DNA of 64,000 bases from Ignavibacteriales bacterium (lineage in GTDB: Bacteria; Bacteroidota; Ignavibacteria; UBA10030). The stretch's first letter is position 1; each line of letters opens with the position of its first letter. The stretch spans positions 233,101-297,100 of the forward strand of contig JAPLFR010000015.1 of NCBI GenBank assembly GCA_026390575.1. Direction: 5' to 3'. A program made the position numbers and the translations under genes. Shown piece after piece: positions 22,883-33,950 of the stretch. A model generated the notes under the pieces. The model had not been told where the DNA came from, searched no databases, and was given only the letters and a program-made list of their open reading frames with translations.

Positions 22883-24934
22883 CTACCTTTTTCCATTAGC
22901 AAAGATGCGAACAGGCAGCACCATACAGTTCATTGCCCCGAATTGCAGGCGCCGCTGGATTGCATACGCTGTCTCGCTGTGAAGAATGCGTTGATACCAT
23001 TTTTCACGCTCAAACACTAACTTGCCAGCGAAGAAAATTGATCGCGGGTATTCTTTTACAATAGATGCAGATAATTTTTCTATTTCCTCGATAACATCTG
23101 TTCCTGCCGCGAGACGGTAGTCGGCACCTAAGCCAAATTGATTTGCAAGATTAACATATTGTTCTAAATATTTTTGCTGTGCCGCCATTAATTCATCCAA
23201 TTCACTTTGACCTTTCAAGGTACTTGCATCAATATTCACAACAGAGATAAATATTACATTCTTAAAGTGATTCGGAAAAAGTTTTTGGATAAAAAGAAAA
23301 GAATGGATTCCAAGTCCGCTGTACTCTTTCACCATTAAAACTGCGGTGTTTGCCTGAGGAAGAACTTTTATTGAAGTCCAACCTACGACAGGGGGAATGT
23401 CTGAAAGAATATCGTCAAGTCGTTTGAGGTGGTTCCCGACTTTTCTATAATGACGCCGGATCCTGAAACAAAGCAGGATGATGCCGCTTGTGATAACAAG
23501 AGTTACCCAACCGCCGACAGAAAATTTTTCATAGATGCTAACCATAAGAATGGAGAGACATAGAACCAAACCTATAACATGGATAACGATGTGCCGCGAC
23601 CAATCAGGATATTGTGTGCGATTCTTGATCCAATATCGAACCATACCCATTTGTGAGAGAGAAAATGTAAGAAACACATTGATCGAGTACATAAGAATAA
23701 GTGTTCGTGTACCACCTCCTGTTACAACGAGGATACCAATGGCGGCGGCAGCAATCAACACTACACCGTTTTGCATGGTTAATCGATCTGAAAGCGAAGC
23801 AAACCGTCGCGGCAACCATGAATCCACGGCCATATTTGCCATTACACGCGGACCATCAATGAATCCAGTTTGTGCTGCTACAAATAGCAAAGCAGCTTCA
23901 GAAGCAAGTGTAAGAACAACAAACATCCACCCAACTGATACTCCTCCCAACAACCAGCTGCCGGCAAACCGATCGAGTAGGACTGCGTTCATGGTTTTAC
24001 CGGTTACCGGGGTTACATGATAGAGCAGGTAGCAAACCATAATCCCTCCTGCAGTTACAGCGAGAGAAATAGCCATATACACCATTGTTCGTTTGGCAGT
24101 ATCAATCTTCGGTTCTCGCATAATTTGGATACCGTTTGAGACAGCTTCGAGACCAGTATACGTTCCTGCACCCATGGAATAGGCACGAGCAAAGATTGCC
24201 GTCATCCCGAGAAAACCTAATGTTTGCAGACCATTGGTGAAGTCGCTATGCATCTTACCAGCAACTTGCTGTACTTCTGTTAAGTGGAATCCAATGCCTC
24301 CAAAAATTAATACAATATGCGTTACGAGAAAAAGAAGAAATATCGGCATAAGAATCGTGACCGACTCCTTCACGCCGCGGAGATTCATTATCATGAGCAG
24401 GAAAATAACGGCAGCAACGACAATAAGTTTGTACTGGTGCCATTGATGTGGAAGGACACTGAACATCTGATCTGCACCACTGGCAATTGATACAGAAATA
24501 GTCAGAACATAATCGACCAGTAGCGCTGAACCCGATACCACCCCGAAATGAGGACCAAGCAACCGACTGGCAACCGTATAGCCGCCCCCGCCGGAAGGGA
24601 AATGCTCGATCATACGTGAATAGGAATATGAAATAATAAATACTGTAAAGGCAGTTGCTAAAGCAAGTGCAACTGCAAGGTATGCATGGCTCTCGAGAGC
24701 GCGGAATGATTCATCAGGACCATACGCCGACGAAGAAAGTCCGTCTGCTCCTAATCCAACCCAGGCAAGAAATGCAATGAGTGAAATGCGATGAAAAACT
24801 CCAGGATCTTTGATGCTTCGAGGTGCACCAAGAATGGCGCGTTTTATTTTAGTAGAAAACCTTTTTTCTGAATCATCACCAAGAGATGAGGGATCACCAT
24901 CTGAAGAATTATCGGCACTGCCTTGTTCCATCAT
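22883..24934 (-). CDS. APC-superfamily transporter, KimA-like potassium uptake candidate
   Basis: This is a 683-residue protein with about 12 transmembrane helices (residues 48-500) and a cytoplasmic C-terminal domain of about 180 residues. The first helix region contains LGADGLSSSAYGPDES (61-76), the SSxAYG signature of the APC family, including the KUP-like KimA/YdaO potassium transporters. KimA imports potassium with protons and has a comparable C-terminal domain. The location, divergent from the kdp cluster, supports a potassium role but does not prove it; an amino-acid permease is the alternative. I see no c-di-AMP riboswitch-like leader upstream. Confidence 0.78.
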   Translation of the reverse strand: MMEQGSADNSSDGDPSSLGDDSEKRFSTKIKRAILGAPRSIKDPGVFHRISLIAFLAWVGLGADGLSSSAYGPDESFRALESHAYLAVALALATAFTVFIISYSYSRMIEHFPSGGGGYTVASRLLGPHFGVVSGSALLVDYVLTISVSIASGADQMFSVLPHQWHQYKLIVVAAVIFLLMIMNLRGVKESVTILMPIFLLFLVTHIVLIFGGIGFHLTEVQQVAGKMHSDFTNGLQTLGFLGMTAIFARAYSMGAGTYTGLEAVSNGIQIMREPKIDTAKRTMVYMAISLAVTAGGIMVCYLLYHVTPVTGKTMNAVLLDRFAGSWLLGGVSVGWMFVVLTLASEAALLFVAAQTGFIDGPRVMANMAVDSWLPRRFASLSDRLTMQNGVVLIAAAAIGILVVTGGGTRTLILMYSINVFLTFSLSQMGMVRYWIKNRTQYPDWSRHIVIHVIGLVLCLSILMVSIYEKFSVGGWVTLVITSGIILLCFRIRRHYRKVGNHLKRLDDILSDIPPVVGWTSIKVLPQANTAVLMVKEYSGLGIHSFLFIQKLFPNHFKNVIFISVVNIDASTLKGQSELDELMAAQQKYLEQYVNLANQFGLGADYRLAAGTDVIEEIEKLSASIVKEYPRSIFFAGKLVFEREKWYQRILHSETAYAIQRRLQFGAMNCMVLPVRIFANGKR

Positions 24935-25298
24935 CTTTCCAAAATGTACAACATATTAAATATTTTACTCTATTAAGGTACAGAGTAATCAGCAGAAAGG
25001 ATAGATTATCGGTGGAAATGAAGTAAAATTGCAACAATGAATACTATCGTTCATATCTAAAAAACGTTAGTTTTTTAAATTTTTATATTTTTTTTATAGC
25101 TGAGAGCCATTTCTTTATATTTTCTTTATATAAGATTTTGTTTCGCTTTTTCAGTTTCAGATATCCTCTTATAACTTCTTTATAGCCTTACATCATCTTT
25201 TTATATCTCCTGAATTGCGCTTTTAATTCTTACTCGTGAAATTACTCCTGCACGATCTAAAGGAACACAGCAAACATCATCATTCAAGAAAGGTCCCT
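24935..25298. promoter_or_regulatory. AT-rich divergent control region between KimA-like gene and kdp cluster
   Basis: These 364 bp hold no gene. They are markedly AT-rich, with long T runs on the plus strand from about 25071. They contain the TTTATA array described separately and must carry the promoters of both the minus-strand transporter and the plus-strand kdp cluster. A GTG at 25236 is in frame with the first kdp-side gene but has no ribosome-binding site, so I place that gene's start at 25299. Confidence 0.7.
25082..25205 (+). promoter_or_regulatory. Helically phased TTTATA array, candidate KdpE operator
   Basis: Exact TTTATA hexamers begin at 25082, 25093, 25114, 25125, 25179 and 25200, and CTTATA begins at 25168. 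Successive spacings are 11, 21, 11, 43, 11 and 21, close to whole turns of about 10.7 bp. The triplet 82-93-114 is repeated as 168-179-200 with the same 11 and 21 spacing. The E. coli KdpE site in the kdpFABC promoter also contains TTTATA followed by a T-rich segment. KdpE is encoded at the end of this cluster. Regulation by KdpE is inference. Confidence 0.5.
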
Positions 25299-25568
25299 AT
25301 GGCATTACTCATCGTTTCATTTAACATCAAAAATTCTGAGAAGGATCATTCAGAGCTGCTCTCGCGAATAGAGAAATACTCCAATATTCAGCTCTCGGAA
25401 TCTTCCTATGTTATTATAACAGATAAAACACCGAAGATTGTATGTGAAGATCTAATAAAATTTCTTGAGAAGAACGACAACTTGTACGTCATAACCTTGA
25501 AGCGGCCGTACGAAGCATATGGATCAAAGCTGGCAATCGACTGGCTCAATAAATCGCTGACATACTAG
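25299..25568 (+). CDS. Cas2/SinR-like small ferredoxin-fold protein heading the kdp cluster
   Basis: This 89-residue protein starts at the ATG at 25299, with AAGAAAGG 6 nt upstream. Its layout resembles the Cas2-like SinR family: an initial strand ALLIVSFNI, a helix with SELLSRIEKY, a strand SESSYVIIT, a DKTPKIVCEDL helix, then NLYVITLKRPYEAYGSK. These proteins share the Cas2/VapD ferredoxin-like fold but are found outside CRISPR loci. No CRISPR array or cas gene is present. It lies 30 bp before kdpC and is co-directional. A role in potassium control is only suggested by position. Confidence 0.6.
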   Translation: MALLIVSFNIKNSEKDHSELLSRIEKYSNIQLSESSYVIITDKTPKIVCEDLIKFLEKNDNLYVITLKRPYEAYGSKLAIDWLNKSLTY

Positions 25569-25598: not shown

Positions 25599-26192
25599 AT
25601 GTTTATAAAAAATCTTCGTATATCGCTTATCGCCATTGTGCTGTTTACATTGCTCACCGGCTTGCTGTACCCGCTTCTTGTGACTGGAATTGCACAGCTT
25701 TTTTTTCCTGAGAAAGCCAACGGAAGTATTTTAATAAAAAATGGAAAAATACTCGGCTCCGCATTGATCGGGCAACCGTTTCATGACCCAAAATATTTCT
25801 GGAGCAGGCCCTCGTCAACAGGGCCGTTCCCCTATAACGCAGGGGCATCGAGCGGATCAAATTATGGATCGCTCAATCCGGCATTTCTTGATGGAGCTCG
25901 TAAGAGAGTTCAGGACCTGAAAGCTGCAGATTCATTAAATACTCAACCGGTCCCTATCGATCTTGTGACGGCTTCCGGAAGTGGGCTTGATCCGCATATG
26001 AGTGTTGCATCTGCCCTCTATCAATTAGAACGTGTGGCAAAAAAACGGAATGTGCAGGTCGCGCAAATTCGCTCTCTTATCGATCAATACACTGAAGAAC
26101 GCACCCTCGGTTTTCTCGGAGAGCCACGAGTGAATATTCTCAAATTGAATCTTGCACTCGATGCAATGCAATTATCTACCAGAGGAAAATAA
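25599..26192 (+). CDS. kdpC: Potassium-transporting ATPase subunit C
   Basis: This 197-residue subunit has a single N-terminal membrane helix (about residues 8-32) and a periplasmic domain. Family motifs are clear: FFPEKANGS, LIGQPFHDPKYFWSRPS, YNAGASSGSNYG, and ASGSGLDPHMS. KdpC stabilises the KdpFABC complex and the potassium-bound state. GGAAGGA precedes the ATG. Its position before kdpF-kdpA-kdpB is unusual, because in the common kdpFABC order it is last. Confidence 0.97.
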   Translation: MFIKNLRISLIAIVLFTLLTGLLYPLLVTGIAQLFFPEKANGSILIKNGKILGSALIGQPFHDPKYFWSRPSSTGPFPYNAGASSGSNYGSLNPAFLDGARKRVQDLKAADSLNTQPVPIDLVTASGSGLDPHMSVASALYQLERVAKKRNVQVAQIRSLIDQYTEERTLGFLGEPRVNILKLNLALDAMQLSTRGK

Positions 26193-26194
26193 CT

Positions 26195-26305
26195 ATGGAC
26201 GACATCATCTATATCTGCATTGCGGTTGTATTTTTTCTTCTTACTTGGGGGCTTATGAAGATGTGTGAATTCCTTGGAGAAAATAAAACAGGAGGGAAAT
26301 CATGA
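26195..26305 (+). CDS. 36-residue single-span membrane protein upstream of kdpF
   Basis: ATG at 26195 opens a 36-codon frame ending TGA at 26303-26305. It starts 2 nt after the kdpC stop and overlaps the kdpF start (ATGA). AGAGGAAA lies upstream. The product is a hydrophobic helix (about residues 4-20) ending TWGLMKMCEFL, then a polar tail. Short proteins of this W-G-L-x-x-x-C-E/D type occur ahead of kdpF in some other bacteria as I recall it, but I cannot name the family. Tight coupling on both sides argues that it is translated. Confidence 0.6.
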   Translation: MDDIIYICIAVVFFLLTWGLMKMCEFLGENKTGGKS

Positions 26306-26394
26306 GCGGGCTCTATTGTATTTCGGGAATTATTTCCATCGGGCTTTTGATCTACTTGTTTGTGGCGCTTTTAAAGCCGGAGATATTCGAATGA
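26302..26394 (+). CDS. kdpF: Potassium-transporting ATPase small subunit F
   Basis: This is a 30-residue, single-helix protein. It overlaps the preceding small ORF by 4 nt and overlaps the kdpA start by 4 nt (ATGA at 26391). GGAGGG stands 6 nt before the ATG. The YLFVALLKPE segment is the conserved KdpF core. KdpF stabilises the KdpFABC complex. Confidence 0.88.
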   Translation: MSGLYCISGIISIGLLIYLFVALLKPEIFE

Positions 26395-28133
26395 CAATCA
26401 ACGGAATTATTCAAATCGCATTTTATCTTACGGTGTTGACTCTTCTTACAAAACCGCTCGGTGTTTTTATGGCTCGTATATACCAGAGGGAAAAAACGTT
26501 TCTTGATCCTGTCCTTGGACCGATCGAACGCCTTATCTATCGTCTCGCAAAGATTAATTCCAACGAGGAGATGGATTGGAAAGCGAATGCTCTTGCAATG
26601 CTTCTCTTTAATGTTGTCGGTTTTTTGTTTGTATACGCGTTGCAACGTTTACAGCAATTTCTTCCATTGAATCCTCAGGGGATGGCAGCCGTTACTCCAG
26701 ACTCTTCATTCAATACCGCTGTGAGCTTTGCTACGAATACGAACTGGCAGGGCTACAACGGTGAAACGACGATGAGTTATTTGACACAAATGCTCGGTCT
26801 GACTGTCCAGAATTTTGTTTCCGCAGCGACAGGAATGGCGGTGCTTGCGCTTTTCATCCGTGGAATTGCTCGCCATTCGGCAAAGACACTCGGAAATTTT
26901 TGGGTCGATATGACCCGCAGTATATTATACATACTTCTGCCTCTTGCTAGTATCTTCTCACTTGTGCTCGTATCGCAAGGAGTTATACAAAATAATTCTG
27001 CATATGTCTCTATTCCCTTTCTTCAATCGACAACCGACACAGGCGGCGTGAAAGTAGCAGATCAGGTTCTTGCGATGGGGCCGGTGGCTTCTCAAATTGC
27101 CATTAAACAATTAGGAACCAACGGCGGGGGTTTTTTCAATGTCAATTCAGCACACCCGTTTGAGAATCCCACGCCGTTGACAGATTTCTTAGAGATGCTT
27201 GCAATTCTGCTTATACCTGCGGCATTGTGTTATACTTTCGGTAAAATGGTGAAAGACACGCGTCAGGGCTGGGCAATCTTTGCTGCAATGATGTTGATAC
27301 TCGTCGCGGCAGTGTTTTGGATGTATAGTCTTGAAGGATCGGGCAATCCTAAACTAACCGCACTCGGCGTGGATCAACAATCGACTTCAATTAATCCCGG
27401 TGGTAATATGGAGGGAAAGGAAGTCCGATTCGGTATTCCCAACTCGGCAGTCTGGGCAACTGCAACAACAGCTGCCTCGAATGGCTCTGTGAATGCAATG
27501 CACGATTCTTACACTCCACTCGGTGGAATGATAACGCTCATTATGCTTCATCTTGGAGAAGTCGTTTTTGGCGGGGTTGGTTCGGGTTTGTACGGTATGC
27601 TCATTTTTGTCGTTGTGGCTGTATTCGTTGCAGGATTGCTTGTAGGACGGACGCCGGAATATCTCGGCCACAAAATTGAAGCATATGAAATGAAAATGGC
27701 ATCCCTTTTAATCCTTATTATGCCGATCACGGTTCTCGTTTTTACAGCAATTGCCGTGGTCACGGCTGCTGGGAAAGCAGGGATCATGAATCCCGGTCCT
27801 CATGGATTTAGCGAGATTCTCTATGTCTTTACATCTCAAGCGAATAATAATGGAAGTGCCTTTGCTGGAGTAAGTGCAAATACACCATTTTATAATCTGA
27901 CCGGCGGTTTGGCAATGCTGATCGGCAGGTACTGGCTTGCCGTTCCAACACTCGCACTTGCCGGTTCTCTTGTACGAAAAAAACTTGTTCCTGCGGGAGA
28001 AGGAACACTGCCGACACATACACCGCTGTTTATCTTTTGGCTTATTGCCGTCGTCCTTATTGTCGGTGCGTTGAACTTTTTACCAGCTCTTGCGCTCGGT
28101 CCGATTGTCGAACATTTCATAATGATACAATAG
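26391..28133 (+). CDS. kdpA: Potassium-transporting ATPase subunit A
   Basis: This 580-residue polytopic channel-like subunit selects and passes potassium. It is a member of the superfamily of K+ transporters with four selectivity-filter repeats; segments such as SFATNTNWQGYNGE, IKQLGTNGGGFFNVNSAHPFENP and FTSQANNNGSAFAG are diagnostic. The frame is open upstream to a GTG at 26265, but the ATG at 26391 overlaps the kdpF stop and matches the KdpA N terminus (MTINGIIQI), so it is the start. Thirty bp separate it from kdpB. Confidence 0.97.
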   Translation: MTINGIIQIAFYLTVLTLLTKPLGVFMARIYQREKTFLDPVLGPIERLIYRLAKINSNEEMDWKANALAMLLFNVVGFLFVYALQRLQQFLPLNPQGMAAVTPDSSFNTAVSFATNTNWQGYNGETTMSYLTQMLGLTVQNFVSAATGMAVLALFIRGIARHSAKTLGNFWVDMTRSILYILLPLASIFSLVLVSQGVIQNNSAYVSIPFLQSTTDTGGVKVADQVLAMGPVASQIAIKQLGTNGGGFFNVNSAHPFENPTPLTDFLEMLAILLIPAALCYTFGKMVKDTRQGWAIFAAMMLILVAAVFWMYSLEGSGNPKLTALGVDQQSTSINPGGNMEGKEVRFGIPNSAVWATATTAASNGSVNAMHDSYTPLGGMITLIMLHLGEVVFGGVGSGLYGMLIFVVVAVFVAGLLVGRTPEYLGHKIEAYEMKMASLLILIMPITVLVFTAIAVVTAAGKAGIMNPGPHGFSEILYVFTSQANNNGSAFAGVSANTPFYNLTGGLAMLIGRYWLAVPTLALAGSLVRKKLVPAGEGTLPTHTPLFIFWLIAVVLIVGALNFLPALALGPIVEHFIMIQ

Positions 28134-28163
28134 CTTATTGAGAGAAAAGAAAGCAACACTTAT

Positions 28164-30266
28164 ATGACAACACAATCTTCACAACCGCTAAAGAAACCGC
28201 TAGGGCTTACCGGTGAAATGTTTCGTCGTGCTATAATTGATTCGTTTGTGAAATTGAATCCAAGATCAATGGCGCGGAATCCCGTGATGTTTGTCGTGGA
28301 AGTAGGAAGCATTCTCACAACGGCATTATGGATTCAAGCATTGCTCGGTACCGGAGAAGCACCGGCATGGTACATCGGCTTCATATCACTCTGGTTATGG
28401 TTCACGGTTCTCTTTGCAAACTTTTCAGAAGCACTCGCAGAAGGACGTGGAAAAGCACAAGCTGAAGCATTGCGCCGATCACGCCGAGATACCACGGCAA
28501 AACGATTACACAATCCTCAACGGAAATCGACCTTTGATATCATCACATCCACGGATTTACAAAAGGGCGATATGTATCTCGTCGAAGCTGGAGATATCAT
28601 TGCGGCTGATGGTGAGGTACTAGAAGGCATCGCCTCCGTGGATGAAAGTGCCATCACCGGTGAAAGTGCCCCTGTCATTCGTGAATCTGGTGGTGACCGC
28701 AGTGCGGTTACCGGCGGCACACGCGTGCTTTCCGATTGGTTGATTATTCGCGTAACTATAGAACCCGGCGGTGGTTTTCTCGACAGGATGATTCATTTGA
28801 TTGAAGGTGCCAAACGGCAAAAGACTCCGAATGAGATTGCGTTAAATATTCTCTTGGCTGCCTTCACAATAATATTTCTGATTGTATGTGTAACGCTGCT
28901 TCCGTTTTCACTTTTTAGTGTAGCGGCAGCTGGACAGGGAACACCGATAACAGTAACCGTACTTGTTGCTCTTCTTGTGTGTTTGATTCCTACAACCATC
29001 GGCGGCCTTCTTTCTGCAATTGGAATAGCAGGTATGGATCGCATGATCCGTCATAACGTGATTGCAACATCCGGACGTGCTATTGAAGCTGCCGGCGATG
29101 TCGACGTTCTGCTGCTGGATAAGACCGGTACAATAACACTTGGAAATCGCATGGCGACTGAATTCACGCCTGCACCTGGAATTTCCAAGGAACGCCTGGC
29201 TGATGCAGCGCAGCTTGCATCTCTTGCAGATGAGACACCGGAAGGGCGGTCAATAGTTATTCTTGCCAAAGAAAAATACGGATTGCGCGGCCGTGATATC
29301 CATGACATCGCGGCGCATTTTGTTCCCTTCAGTGCTCAAACACGCATGAGCGGCGCCGATATTCTTCCTGAGGGCCGTAACGGCAAAAGGATCATACGGA
29401 AAGGTGCAACAGATTCAATGAAAGCGTACATCGAAGAACAAGGAGGCGTATTCCCGCCGGCAGTTCAGCAGTCCGTTCAGGATATCAGCCGGCTTGGAGC
29501 AACGCCCCTCGTCGTTGCAGAGAATAAAGAAGTACTCGGCGTGATTCATTTGAAAGATATTGTTAAAGGCGGAATCAAGGATCGATTTGCACACCTGCGA
29601 AAAATGGGAATTAAAACTGTAATGATCACTGGTGACAACCCGTTAACAGCAACTGCCATAGCTGCTGAAGCGGGTGTAGACGATTTTCTTGCAGAAGCAA
29701 AACCGGAAGATAAACTTAAACTTATTCGTGATTATCAAAAAGGCGGACGGCTTGTTGCAATGACCGGCGACGGTACCAACGACGCTCCGGCGCTCGCTCA
29801 GGCAGATGTCGCTGTTGCAATGAATACCGGCACGCAATCCGCCCGTGAAGCTGCAAACATGATAGATCTCGACAGTAACCCGACAAAACTGATGGAGATT
29901 GTCGAAATCGGCAAACAGCTTCTTATGACGCGCGGAACTCTTACCACATTCAGTATCGCGAACGATATTGCAAAATATTTTGCGATCATTCCCGCCGCTT
30001 TCGCAACAACGTATCCCGTATTGAACGCATTGAACATTATGAAGCTTGCCACGCCCGAAAGTGCCATTCTCTCTGCAGTCATCTTTAATGCGTTGATCAT
30101 TGTTGCGTTGATTCCCTTGGCACTGAAAGGAGTAAAATATCGTCCGGTCAGCGCCGTTCAATTGTTGAGAAGGCATTTGCTCATCTATGGAGTGGGAGGA
30201 GTGATTGCTCCATTTATAGGAATCAAGCTGATCGATATGCTTATGGTCGCAATGAGGATTGTTTAA
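28164..30266 (+). CDS. kdpB: Potassium-transporting P-type ATPase subunit B
   Basis: This 700-residue catalytic subunit hydrolyses ATP to drive potassium import by KdpFABC. The phosphorylation motif DKTGT has its aspartate at 319. TGES is at 165-168, and the hinge motif [18 protein letters not shown] is near residue 530. The number of membrane helices is consistent with a P1A ATPase. It is preceded by kdpF-kdpA and followed by a small membrane protein rather than kdpC. In E. coli the TGES serine is a site of inhibitory phosphorylation; this serine is conserved here. Confidence 0.97.
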
Positions 30267-30292
30267 TTAAGCCACGAAAGGGGATCGAGGAT

Positions 30293-30475
30293 ATGAACGA
30301 ACAAAAAGATGTAGCGGGAGAAAAATTACCTGAAGAAGAAAGCCAATTTCAGCACTTGGTAATTGTTATCGTACTAGCGCTTCTTCTTGGATTTTTGGCC
30401 GGATTTCTTTCACATGATCACCTGGTCCATTTCGCTCCTGACCATTTGGATTGGAAGAGTTGGTACCCACGGTAA
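30293..30475 (+). CDS. 60-residue single-span membrane protein between kdpB and kdpD
   Basis: This small protein has an acidic N-terminal tail (about residues 1-19), one hydrophobic helix (about 21-38) and a histidine/aspartate-rich tail including SHDHLVHFAPDHLDW. It begins 26 bp after kdpB, with GAGG upstream of the ATG. I recognise no family. The position suggests an accessory or regulatory subunit of the Kdp pump or of KdpD. The histidines might bind a metal, but there is no direct evidence. Confidence 0.55.
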   Translation: MNEQKDVAGEKLPEEESQFQHLVIVIVLALLLGFLAGFLSHDHLVHFAPDHLDWKSWYPR

Positions 30476-30480
30476 AATCC

Positions 30481-30502
30481 AGAATGTTCATTATAACATT
30501 CT
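30481..30502 (+). terminator. Inverted repeat between the pump genes and kdpDE
   Basis: AGAATGTT and AACATTCT form a perfect 8-bp stem with a 6-nt loop, beginning 5 nt after the small ORF's stop codon. No T-tract follows. It may attenuate transcription or stabilise the upstream mRNA end, giving lower kdpDE than kdpFAB expression. Confidence 0.4.
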
Positions 30503-30594
30503 ATCTCTCCGTTTATCAGCTAAAATAAGCCATTAGGTGCATCATACAGAAGTTATGGTGATGTATCTTGTTTTGAATGTAATTATATTTCCCT

Positions 30595-33264
30595 ATGCCA
30601 GCAACTAACGATATGCGTCCCGATCCCGATACGCTTCTTCACCTTATAAAAAAGGAAGAAGAAAAGGAAAAAAGGGGAAAGCTGAAAATATTCTTCGGCA
30701 TGTGCGCAGGTGTGGGGAAGACGTACGATATGCTGAAGGATGCGCAGGTTGCCCTTTCAAAAGGCCTTGATATTGCGATAGGATATGTAGAAACACATAA
30801 ACGTCCTGAAACTGAAGCTCTTCTTTCTGGCCTGCCGATTATTCCAAGAAAGACGTTCGAGTACCGTGGGACCACACTCGAGGAGATGGATTTAGATGCT
30901 GTCCTTTCCAGAAAACCGCAGCTAGTGCTTGTGGATGAACTCGCGCATACAAACGTTCCCGGAAGCCGGCACACAAAACGGTATCAAGATGTGCTTGAGC
31001 TGCTCGATAATGACATCGATGTTTTCACGACACTAAATGTTCAGCATCTCGAAAGCCGCGCTGAAACAGTTGCACAGATCACCGGCAGTCTTGTCCATGA
31101 AACGGTTCCTGATTCGATATTTGAAGCCGCAGATGAAGTTGAAGTGATAGATATTTCACCGGATGAGCTCCTGAAACGGCTTGCTGAAGGGAAAGTCTAC
31201 ACTCCCGAACGTTCAAAACGAGCGGGTGAGAATTTTTTCCGGAAAGGAAATCTCACCGCTCTGAGAGAAATGTCTCTCCGTTTGACGGCTGAACGCGTCG
31301 ATCAACAGTTACGGGAATATAAACAAACGAAGCGGATTTCAGAAACATGGAAATCCGGAACACGATTGATCGTCGGTATTGGTGTCGATCCGCAGTCGCT
31401 TTCCGTCATCCGCTGGGCGCGTAGGATTTCCTACACGATGGATGCATCGTGGGTGGTCGTCCACGTTGAAACTTCGGCAAGGATAACGGAACAAGAAACA
31501 GAACAACTTGCAAAGAACTTCAAACTTGCAAAGGAACTTGACGCAGAAATTATCACAACATCCGATGAAGATATTGCCGGTGCGCTGTTGCGTGTAGCGC
31601 GCGAGCAAAATGCGACACAAATACTGATCGGAAAACCAAAACGGCAAACACTTTTTCGCACATCACGGCTTGTGGACGACCTTCTGAAGAAAAGTCAGGA
31701 TATCGATATTTATATTGTTGGACATGAAGATGATGCGCAACCGCCCGCACGGCGCTTTTTTATTCCAAAGATTCAATCCGGATTTGTTCAGTACCTCGTT
31801 GCCGCACTCATTGTGTTCGGCGTGGCACTCGCTTGTTTTCCCCTTACAGCATGGATCGGTTATCGAACCGTTTCGTTTATCATTCTCTTGACAGTTTCCT
31901 TGCTGCCTCTGAGGATGGGACGCGGCCCGGTTCTTTTAGGCGCAGCGTTTGGAGCATTGTCGTGGGATTTTCTCTACATTGCTCCCTTGTTCACATTTTC
32001 CATTGGCCATGTGGAAGATGTTTTGATGCTCGCGATGTTCTTCATTGTGGCTGCAGTAACAGGAACGCTCTCCGCCCGTGTCCGTGAAAGGGAAAAAGCT
32101 GTCCGGCAGCGCGAAATCAAGTCATCGGCACTCTTTGCCCTCACGAAGGATCTCTCATCGGCACATTCGCAGAACGAAGTTATTCAAGCTGCCGTATCGA
32201 ACATCAAAAAGTTTTTTAATGCAGATGTGGCAGTGTTTCTTGGCGAAGCAGATGGTGATATGAACCCGACGCCGCACACTGCAAGTTCATGGAAGCCTGA
32301 TGAAAAAGACCGTAGTGTTGCTGCGTGGACATACTGGAATGAAAAAAAAGCCGGTAAATATACCGATACACTTCCGTTTGCACAGGCGACGTATTATTCC
32401 ATGTCGGGGCCGCGTTATCCATTGGGTGTTCTCGGCGTGAGGTTTCAGAGCGATGAAAAACTATCGCTTGATTATGAAACCTTGCTCGAAAATTTCATTG
32501 CACAGATTGCCTCGGCTGTGGAACGTGAGCTTTTAAACGATATGACAAAAAAGTCCGTTATTGTTGCAGAATCAGAACGTTTATATAAAACACTCTTTAG
32601 CTCTATTTCCCATGAGCTCAGAACTCCGATTGCTTCCATCATGGGAGCGTCCGAAAATTTACTTTCGGATTCTCAATCACAAGTGTCTGCGACAACCAAG
32701 GAACATAGCAAAGAAATTCATATTGCCGCTGAACGTCTCAACAGGCTTGTTGCGAATCTTCTGGATATGACACGAATCGAATCTGGAATGATTAAACCGA
32801 AATTGGATTGGTGCGATGTGCGTGACTTAATCCATGTGACCGTGAAAGGGCTTGAACGAGAGGTTGTCGACTACCATGTCGTTATGAGCATTCAAGAGGA
32901 TATGCCATTGGTGAAATTGGATTTCGGTCTCATGGAGCAAGCTCTCACGAATCTCATCTATAACGCAGCGGTGCACACGCCAACCGGTACACAAATTGAA
33001 ATAGATGCCCGGGTGGAGGAAAATCAATGCAACATTATCGTTTCCGACAGCGGACCTGGCATTCCACCGTCGGATATGAAGAAAGTATTTGATAAATTCT
33101 ATCGCGCTGAAGGAACGACAACAGGCGGAACCGGATTGGGCCTTCCTATCGCAAAAGGATTTATCGAAGCCCATCGGGGAACGCTGTCTGTCCGGAACAG
33201 AACAAGCGGCGGTGCAGAATTTACGATCACCATACCAATCAAAACAGAACCGGCATCTCTATGA
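30595..33264 (+). CDS. kdpD: Potassium-responsive sensor histidine kinase
   Basis: This 889-residue protein has the full KdpD architecture. The N-terminal KdpD domain has a Walker A motif GMCAGVGKT at 35-43 and DELAHTNVPGSRHTKR. A universal-stress-protein domain follows (about 255-380), then four closely spaced membrane helices (about 400-495), a GAF-like domain, HisKA with SISHELRTP (His673) and HATPase_c ending GGTGLGLPIAKGFIEAH. In E. coli KdpD senses low potassium or osmotic stress and phosphorylates KdpE. Its stop overlaps the kdpE start by 4 nt. Confidence 0.95.
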   Translation: MPATNDMRPDPDTLLHLIKKEEEKEKRGKLKIFFGMCAGVGKTYDMLKDAQVALSKGLDIAIGYVETHKRPETEALLSGLPIIPRKTFEYRGTTLEEMDLDAVLSRKPQLVLVDELAHTNVPGSRHTKRYQDVLELLDNDIDVFTTLNVQHLESRAETVAQITGSLVHETVPDSIFEAADEVEVIDISPDELLKRLAEGKVYTPERSKRAGENFFRKGNLTALREMSLRLTAERVDQQLREYKQTKRISETWKSGTRLIVGIGVDPQSLSVIRWARRISYTMDASWVVVHVETSARITEQETEQLAKNFKLAKELDAEIITTSDEDIAGALLRVAREQNATQILIGKPKRQTLFRTSRLVDDLLKKSQDIDIYIVGHEDDAQPPARRFFIPKIQSGFVQYLVAALIVFGVALACFPLTAWIGYRTVSFIILLTVSLLPLRMGRGPVLLGAAFGALSWDFLYIAPLFTFSIGHVEDVLMLAMFFIVAAVTGTLSARVREREKAVRQREIKSSALFALTKDLSSAHSQNEVIQAAVSNIKKFFNADVAVFLGEADGDMNPTPHTASSWKPDEKDRSVAAWTYWNEKKAGKYTDTLPFAQATYYSMSGPRYPLGVLGVRFQSDEKLSLDYETLLENFIAQIASAVERELLNDMTKKSVIVAESERLYKTLFSSISHELRTPIASIMGASENLLSDSQSQVSATTKEHSKEIHIAAERLNRLVANLLDMTRIESGMIKPKLDWCDVRDLIHVTVKGLEREVVDYHVVMSIQEDMPLVKLDFGLMEQALTNLIYNAAVHTPTGTQIEIDARVEENQCNIIVSDSGPGIPPSDMKKVFDKFYRAEGTTTGGTGLGLPIAKGFIEAHRGTLSVRNRTSGGAEFTITIPIKTEPASL

Positions 33265-33950
33265 GCAATCTCCCAAAAATTCTTGTTATCGATGATGAGG
33301 TACAAATGCGGCGATTGCTTCAACTCACCCTCGAGCCGAATAGTTATAACCTGAAATTTGCATCGAAAGGAAACGATGGAATTGTCATGGCCGGCTCCGA
33401 GCGGCCTGAACTCATCATACTTGATCTCGGACTTCCGGATATCGACGGGCTGGCCGTTTTAAAAAAAATTCGTGAATGGGCCACGATTCCTATTATTATT
33501 CTTTCTGTCCGGAATGACGAAAGCGATATTATTTCATGCCTCGATGCAGGAGCCGATGACTACTTGATAAAACCATTTCGTACGGGAGAATTAATAGCGC
33601 GTGTACGAACAGCATTGCGCCATAGGCCTAAAATTCAGGACAAAGAACTTTTTACTTCCCACAACCTTACCGTTGATTTGACAACACGCCTTGTAAAAAA
33701 AGGAAATGACGTTGTAAAGCTGACAGCAACGGAATATTCCTTGTTAACATTGTTTGTGCGAAACGCAGGAAGAGTTCTGACACATAAATATATCCTTGAA
33801 CAGGTCTGGGGACCGACCTATGCTGAAGAAGCACAATATACCCGTGTCTATGTAGGTCAGCTGCGAAAAAAAATAGAAGACGATCCATCAAATCCGAAAA
33901 TTATCGTTACAGAATCTGGCATCGGCTACCGGATGAATGTTGAAGAGTAA
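33261..33950 (+). CDS. kdpE: OmpR-family response regulator
   Basis: This 229-residue regulator has a receiver domain (acidic pair DDE at 11-13, phosphoacceptor Asp55, Lys near KPF) and a winged-helix DNA-binding domain (about 130-225). It is coupled to kdpD by ATGA. Phosphorylated KdpE activates the kdp structural genes in known systems; here the TTTATA array at 25082-25205 is the best candidate target. The convergent cydB ends 74 bp away. The gap has weak inverted repeats (CAGAGC at 33953 with GCTCTG at 33990) that may serve as a bidirectional terminator. Confidence 0.95.
   Translation: MSNLPKILVIDDEVQMRRLLQLTLEPNSYNLKFASKGNDGIVMAGSERPELIILDLGLPDIDGLAVLKKIREWATIPIIILSVRNDESDIISCLDAGADDYLIKPFRTGELIARVRTALRHRPKIQDKELFTSHNLTVDLTTRLVKKGNDVVKLTATEYSLLTLFVRNAGRVLTHKYILEQVWGPTYAEEAQYTRVYVGQLRKKIEDDPSNPKIIVTESGIGYRMNVEE

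Follow-up and report, generated by a model that had tools for sequence, protein, structure and literature searches.

The KdpDE pair is a textbook two-component system whose response regulator, KdpE, turns on emergency potassium uptake, and yet the picture of its action at the promoter comes from a single E. coli site of 17-23 bp. What, then, is to be made of seven closely related hexamers lying ahead of the kdp genes of an Ignavibacteriales bacterium? They are found in a 64,000-nucleotide stretch of DNA, the whole of which was analysed (the window), from a genome of 3.82 Mb in 16 contigs whose named relatives are Ignavibacteriae/Bacteroidetes MAGs, and they sit in a 364-bp region between kdp and a divergent transporter gene, in the following setting.

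22883..24934, minus strand: divergent gene for a KimA-like amino-acid/K+ permease-type transporter (Pfam AA_permease_2)
25299..25568, plus strand: small ORF of 89 aa between the predicted operator and kdpC (ORF list)
25599..26192, plus strand: kdpC (PF02669, E 3.9e-72)
26265..28133, plus strand: kdpA (PF03814)
28164..30266, plus strand: kdpB (P-type ATPase domains; homologue search)
30595..33264, plus strand: kdpD, sensor kinase (PF02702, DUF4118, HisKA, HATPase)
33261..33950, plus strand: kdpE, response regulator and presumed ligand of the boxes described below (best PDB matches include KdpE, 4kny/4kfc)

The gene order kdpC-A-B-D-E (25599-33950), with kdpC leading, is kept in most of the lineage, while other phyla mostly have A-B-C. 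The 89-aa ORF, which matched no Pfam or NCBIfam family, has relatives in two same-genus genomes (L132 and L133, 53-60% identity) and no match in three others (L131, L134 and L135). A same-family genome also holds fragmented kdpA, kdpB and kdpC matches together with operator-like boxes (L144, G009:C69), which suggests a decaying extra kdp copy.

The hexamers themselves, read directly from the sequence, are these.

25082, 25093, 25114, 25125, 25179 and 25200, plus strand: TTTATA
25168, plus strand: CTTATA

Their successive gaps of 11, 21, 11, 43, 11 and 21 bp and their span of 118 bp had been reported in an initial annotation of this DNA, which proved exact to the base. The seven share an optimal common period of 10.75 bp with a phase concentration of 0.994, a value matched by none of 20,000 random draws into 124 bp, and the phasing of the six exact copies has P = 0.0001 by the same number of random placements. 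The whole window carries 27 TTTATA on its plus strand, six of them within the array. Could base composition be enough? In a spacer of 29% G+C, curvature or chance might produce such words with no specific protein involved, and TTTATA-type pairs do occur at background rate elsewhere in the genome. Shuffles of the 364-bp region that preserved dinucleotides, as the initial annotation had proposed, contained on average 0.77 hexamers and 0.001 11-bp pairs, and not one of 20,000 attained the observed numbers, six for TTTATA and two for pairs at exactly 11 bp. This result, together with a box model that holds across phyla (below) and the fact that kdp upstream regions far richer in G+C retain these words at these spacings, already contradicts an origin in composition, which is scarcely credible.

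The known KdpE site offers a natural key to the array. In the E. coli kdpFABC promoter, this site (kdpFABC-BS) reads TTTATA-N5-TTTACA, and neither half-site can dispense with its TTTA (PMC3264566). We define a KdpE box, after this biochemically demonstrated architecture, as two TTTATA-type half-sites 11 bp apart, that is, 6 bp plus a 5-bp spacer, which gives four predicted boxes in the window.

25082..25098, plus strand: predicted KdpE box A1, TTTATA-TTTTT-TTTATA (score 18.5 under a model trained solely on other phyla)
25114..25130, plus strand: predicted KdpE box A2, TTTATA-TTTTC-TTTATA (score 19.2, other-phyla model; exactly 32 bp after A1)
25168..25184, plus strand: predicted KdpE box B1, CTTATA-ACTTC-TTTATA (score 14.1, other-phyla model; 86 bp after A1)
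25200..25216, plus strand: predicted KdpE box B2, TTTATA-TCTCC-TGAATT (32 bp downstream of B1, with a degenerate second half-site)

Judged as TTTAYA-like direct repeats whose first two bases are T, A1 and A2 are perfect, B1 has one mismatch (its first base, C) and B2 conforms in its first half-site only, the lone TTTATA at 25200. All four have an AT-rich 5-bp spacer, and hence the 11-bp period, and a second box starts exactly 32 bp downstream of the first in both cases (25082/25114, and 25168/25200 with its degenerate last half-site). Two modules emerge: module A (25082-25130), with four perfect half-sites at 0, 11, 32 and 43, and, 86 bp further on, module B (25168-25216; half-sites at 25168, 25179, 25200 and 25211), which repeats this layout, except that its first half-site is poor and its last degenerate. 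B2 coincides with a segment that is conserved as TTGATTGC in relatives, where the counterpart of its last half-site is TTGATTGC or CTGATTGC. Every box lies upstream of kdp and faces it, with the small ORF between operator and kdpC. The window thus has in common with kdpFABC-BS the AT-rich 6-bp direct half-sites, the 5 AT-rich bp between them, the position upstream of kdp and, in E. coli, a reading by KdpE; it differs in that the E. coli site is described as one box, whereas the window has two modules, each of them a pair of boxes at 32 bp. Very probably, on this sequence evidence, the array represents two copies of a conserved operator of paired boxes, to which KdpE is predicted to bind.

How unusual is this arrangement in the genome? 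A scan for three half-sites (TTTAYA-N5-TTTAYR-N15-TTTA), with the reversed pattern as control, returned a single exact match, which is module A, and eight matches at ≤1 mismatch, modules A and B among them. The other six do not exceed what the reversed pattern yields (nine), and the idea that they form a KdpE regulon was dropped on these counts; one of them, on C16, adjoins no K+ gene recognisable from its short ORFs. An AT-rich run with three TTTATA-type pairs lies upstream of a response-regulator gene on C2 (L145, G000:C2:143417-143474), is of low complexity and is without the 32-bp unit.

Whether the boxes are a general property of kdp promoters was addressed with 94 upstream regions, 80 of them from GTDB species genomes and the remainder from same-genus, family and order genomes, E. 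coli and the window (loci with too little upstream DNA were left out). At a position matrix score >= 9, boxes are found on the kdp-facing strand in 83/94 loci and on the other strand in 4/94. Circularity was avoided by crossed training, in which a model from other phyla was tested on the window's lineage and conversely. The other-phyla model finds kdp-facing boxes in 15/20 relatives, as against 1/20 on the opposite strand, and so the conservation in related genomes on which the initial annotation had made its reading depend is borne out; the lineage-trained model finds them in 38/72 loci of other phyla, as against 2/72. The classical Bacteroidota kdp loci (L161-L171) have no KdpE box near kdp, which suggests that they are under different control, and some phyla are also without recognisable boxes.

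The same collection defines the unit of the operator. Although box-to-box spacing never entered the training of the matrix, 23 of the 34 box pairs lying 17-130 bp apart are at exactly 32 bp, and every other distance occurs at most once. The peak persists with both crossed training sets (16 and 7 pairs) and in hold-out loci, which for other phyla included plasmid records, where six of seven pairs are at 32 bp (Bacteroidota-phylum genomes, a Cupriavidus and a Streptomyces plasmid). In that Streptomyces plasmid kdp locus (L187:1349-1397), the two boxes, exactly 32 bp apart, are on the strand opposite to kdp. When half-sites are counted relative to the best box, they are enriched at +32 (27/81 loci) and at +43 (45/81), while the remaining offsets average ~1 with a maximum of 5, excepting -32 (9/81) and -21 (11/81), which are the same spacings viewed from box 2. 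The regular phasing noticed in the initial annotation is therefore real, but because the anchored peaks fall at 0, 11, 32 and 43, the better unit is an 11-bp half-site pair repeated every 32 bp, and evenly phased single hexamers were dropped as the functional unit. This 32-bp double operator occurs in Ignavibacteria-type bacteria, Nitrospirota, Planctomycetota, Chloroflexota and Proteobacteria, and we found no description of a second box in a kdp promoter in the open-access papers searched.

Is the second box really a box? A more conservative reading has one 17-bp KdpE box per promoter, the hexamers 32 bp downstream being half-site-like core-promoter (-35) elements, and it draws on the resemblance of TTTACA/TTGACA half-sites to a -35 element and on E. 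coli, which is described with a single box and whose words at +32/+43 are merely TTTGCG/TTTGCA (these may nevertheless be a weak second box). The core promoter bears on this. In a cross-phylum alignment, sequences with both boxes share a -10-like TA...T at +59 to +64, and its E. coli counterpart at +59, TACCCT, falls at the -10 region by the published KdpE footprint limits of -72 to -50 (PMC3264566). A -10 at +59 with a 17-bp spacer would place the -35 between the half-sites, at +36 to +41, whereas half-sites at +32 and +43 give spacers of 21 and 10 bp. The downstream element, moreover, is also a pair of half-sites 11 bp apart, in many cases no weaker than the upstream one, and in module A all four half-sites are perfect TTTATA, which makes the single-box reading rather improbable. 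For PhoB, pho boxes occupy the -35 region. The position of the -10-like word in the alignment agrees with a PhoB-type promoter, in which the activator box lies over the -35 region and the -10 follows ~10 bp after the last half-site, and by this analogy we infer that box 2 would occupy the -35 region of kdp promoters. In the window's lineage, a TAnnTTTG-like word reminiscent of Bacteroidota promoters can be seen by eye ~20 bp past the last half-site; the window itself has weak TATAAT-like words alone, no clear -10 and no good TAnnTTTG, and in a promoter/terminator scan of the window promoter-like sites were at chance level. An array of sigma-70 promoters (-35/-10 hexamers, 16-18 bp spacer) was rejected, since it does not account for half-sites spaced at 11 and 32.

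The double operator also needs a reader, and KdpE is the obvious candidate. The window KdpE is a full OmpR/PhoB-type regulator with E. coli KdpE structures among its closest solved relatives, and its score against the NCBIfam KdpE equivalog (238), while below the curated cut-off (325), tops all families. The DNA-contact residues R193, R200 and T215 of E. coli KdpE (PMC3264566) correspond to R195, R202 and T217 in an alignment to 4kny. PhoB-family regulators at large use ~11-bp direct repeats (PMC4415409) and the genome encodes a few other full-length OmpR-type paralogues, 33-38% identical to KdpE, one of which might bind the array instead. That is very unlikely: boxes and kdp operons go together from phylum to phylum, and KdpE has been proven to bind this motif in E. 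coli and, by re-reading, in M. smegmatis. The 22-bp M. smegmatis site, CCGTAAAGAAACCATCAAGGCC, was mapped experimentally, and its authors see no similarity to other KdpE sites (PMC5401905). Its reverse complement holds TTGATG-GTTTC-TTTACG (TTGATGGTTTCTTTACG), a near-consensus box that scores 20.4 with a matrix trained without mycobacterial sequence. The mapped site thereby supports the matrix, independently and from experiment, as a description of KdpE sites. The published orientation is opposite to that of the box, and the mycobacterial site may be oriented like the boxes of the Streptomyces plasmid. With the E. coli half-site and 11-bp period, the retained contact residues and kdp-facing boxes across phyla, the extended, same-face KdpE platform before kdp that the initial annotation had envisaged is supported.

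Is the doubling into two modules equally conserved? Half-sites extend beyond one module in 5/5 same-genus genomes, with two full or nearly full modules in each of G001, G003 and G004, and a clear box plus a partial module in each of G002 and G005. The position and order of the modules vary (G003 and G004 have one ahead of the small ORF and another ahead of kdpC), and inter-module spacing is different in each genome; the doubling is therefore conserved only loosely.

The platform had also been proposed to control kdp and the divergent KimA-like gene together. The two share the 364-bp region, and KimA adjoins kdp in 4/5 same-genus genomes, an adjacency that does no more than permit joint control. 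All boxes point to kdp, and the opposite strand, which nowhere in the upstream region scores above 8.5 (the best kdp-facing box reaches 21.9), has none; this part of the proposal was not upheld and joint control seems unlikely, if less so than a single-box promoter. The Rfam match in the window is a tRNA alone, which leaves the space between kimA and kdp without a c-di-AMP riboswitch. Elsewhere in the genome there is another KimA-like gene, with 59% identity (G000:C11:75924-77858, L149).

How might a double operator work? In each module, the two boxes are 32 bp, or three helical turns, apart, on one face and in one direction. Upon K+ limitation, KdpD would phosphorylate KdpE, and each box would take one KdpE dimer, head to tail. 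The downstream dimer, in the -35 region, would recruit RNA polymerase in a PhoB-like manner, the upstream dimer would stabilise it or add a contact, and the second module could give higher occupancy or a sharper response. Pho boxes are likewise 11-bp direct repeats bound by head-to-tail dimers, with several boxes per promoter, and E. coli PhoB contacts sigma (PMC4415409); their half-site sequence is different, and in kdp promoters the boxes follow each other at 32 bp and leave a turn empty in between. The complex PHO operators of S. coelicolor also have varying numbers of direct repeat units (PMC4415409), but kdp box spacing is, unlike theirs, nearly invariant.

What goes beyond the initial annotation is (i) the 32-bp box-to-box unit, (ii) its occurrence as two modules and (iii) a layout general to kdp promoters. 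On balance, we favour the view that in many phyla a pair of KdpE dimers binds the kdp promoter at an invariant step of 32 bp, the second of them sitting in the -35 region as PhoB does, and that the single-box picture of E. coli and the 'dissimilar' mycobacterial site are versions of one operator, which is duplicated in the window's lineage. A fixed 32-bp double operator across phyla would imply that two dimers form a defined complex with RNA polymerase, and would give a sharp, testable rule for the spacing, while the derived box reconciles the mycobacterial site with other KdpE sites and makes kdp regulation predictable in uncultured genomes.
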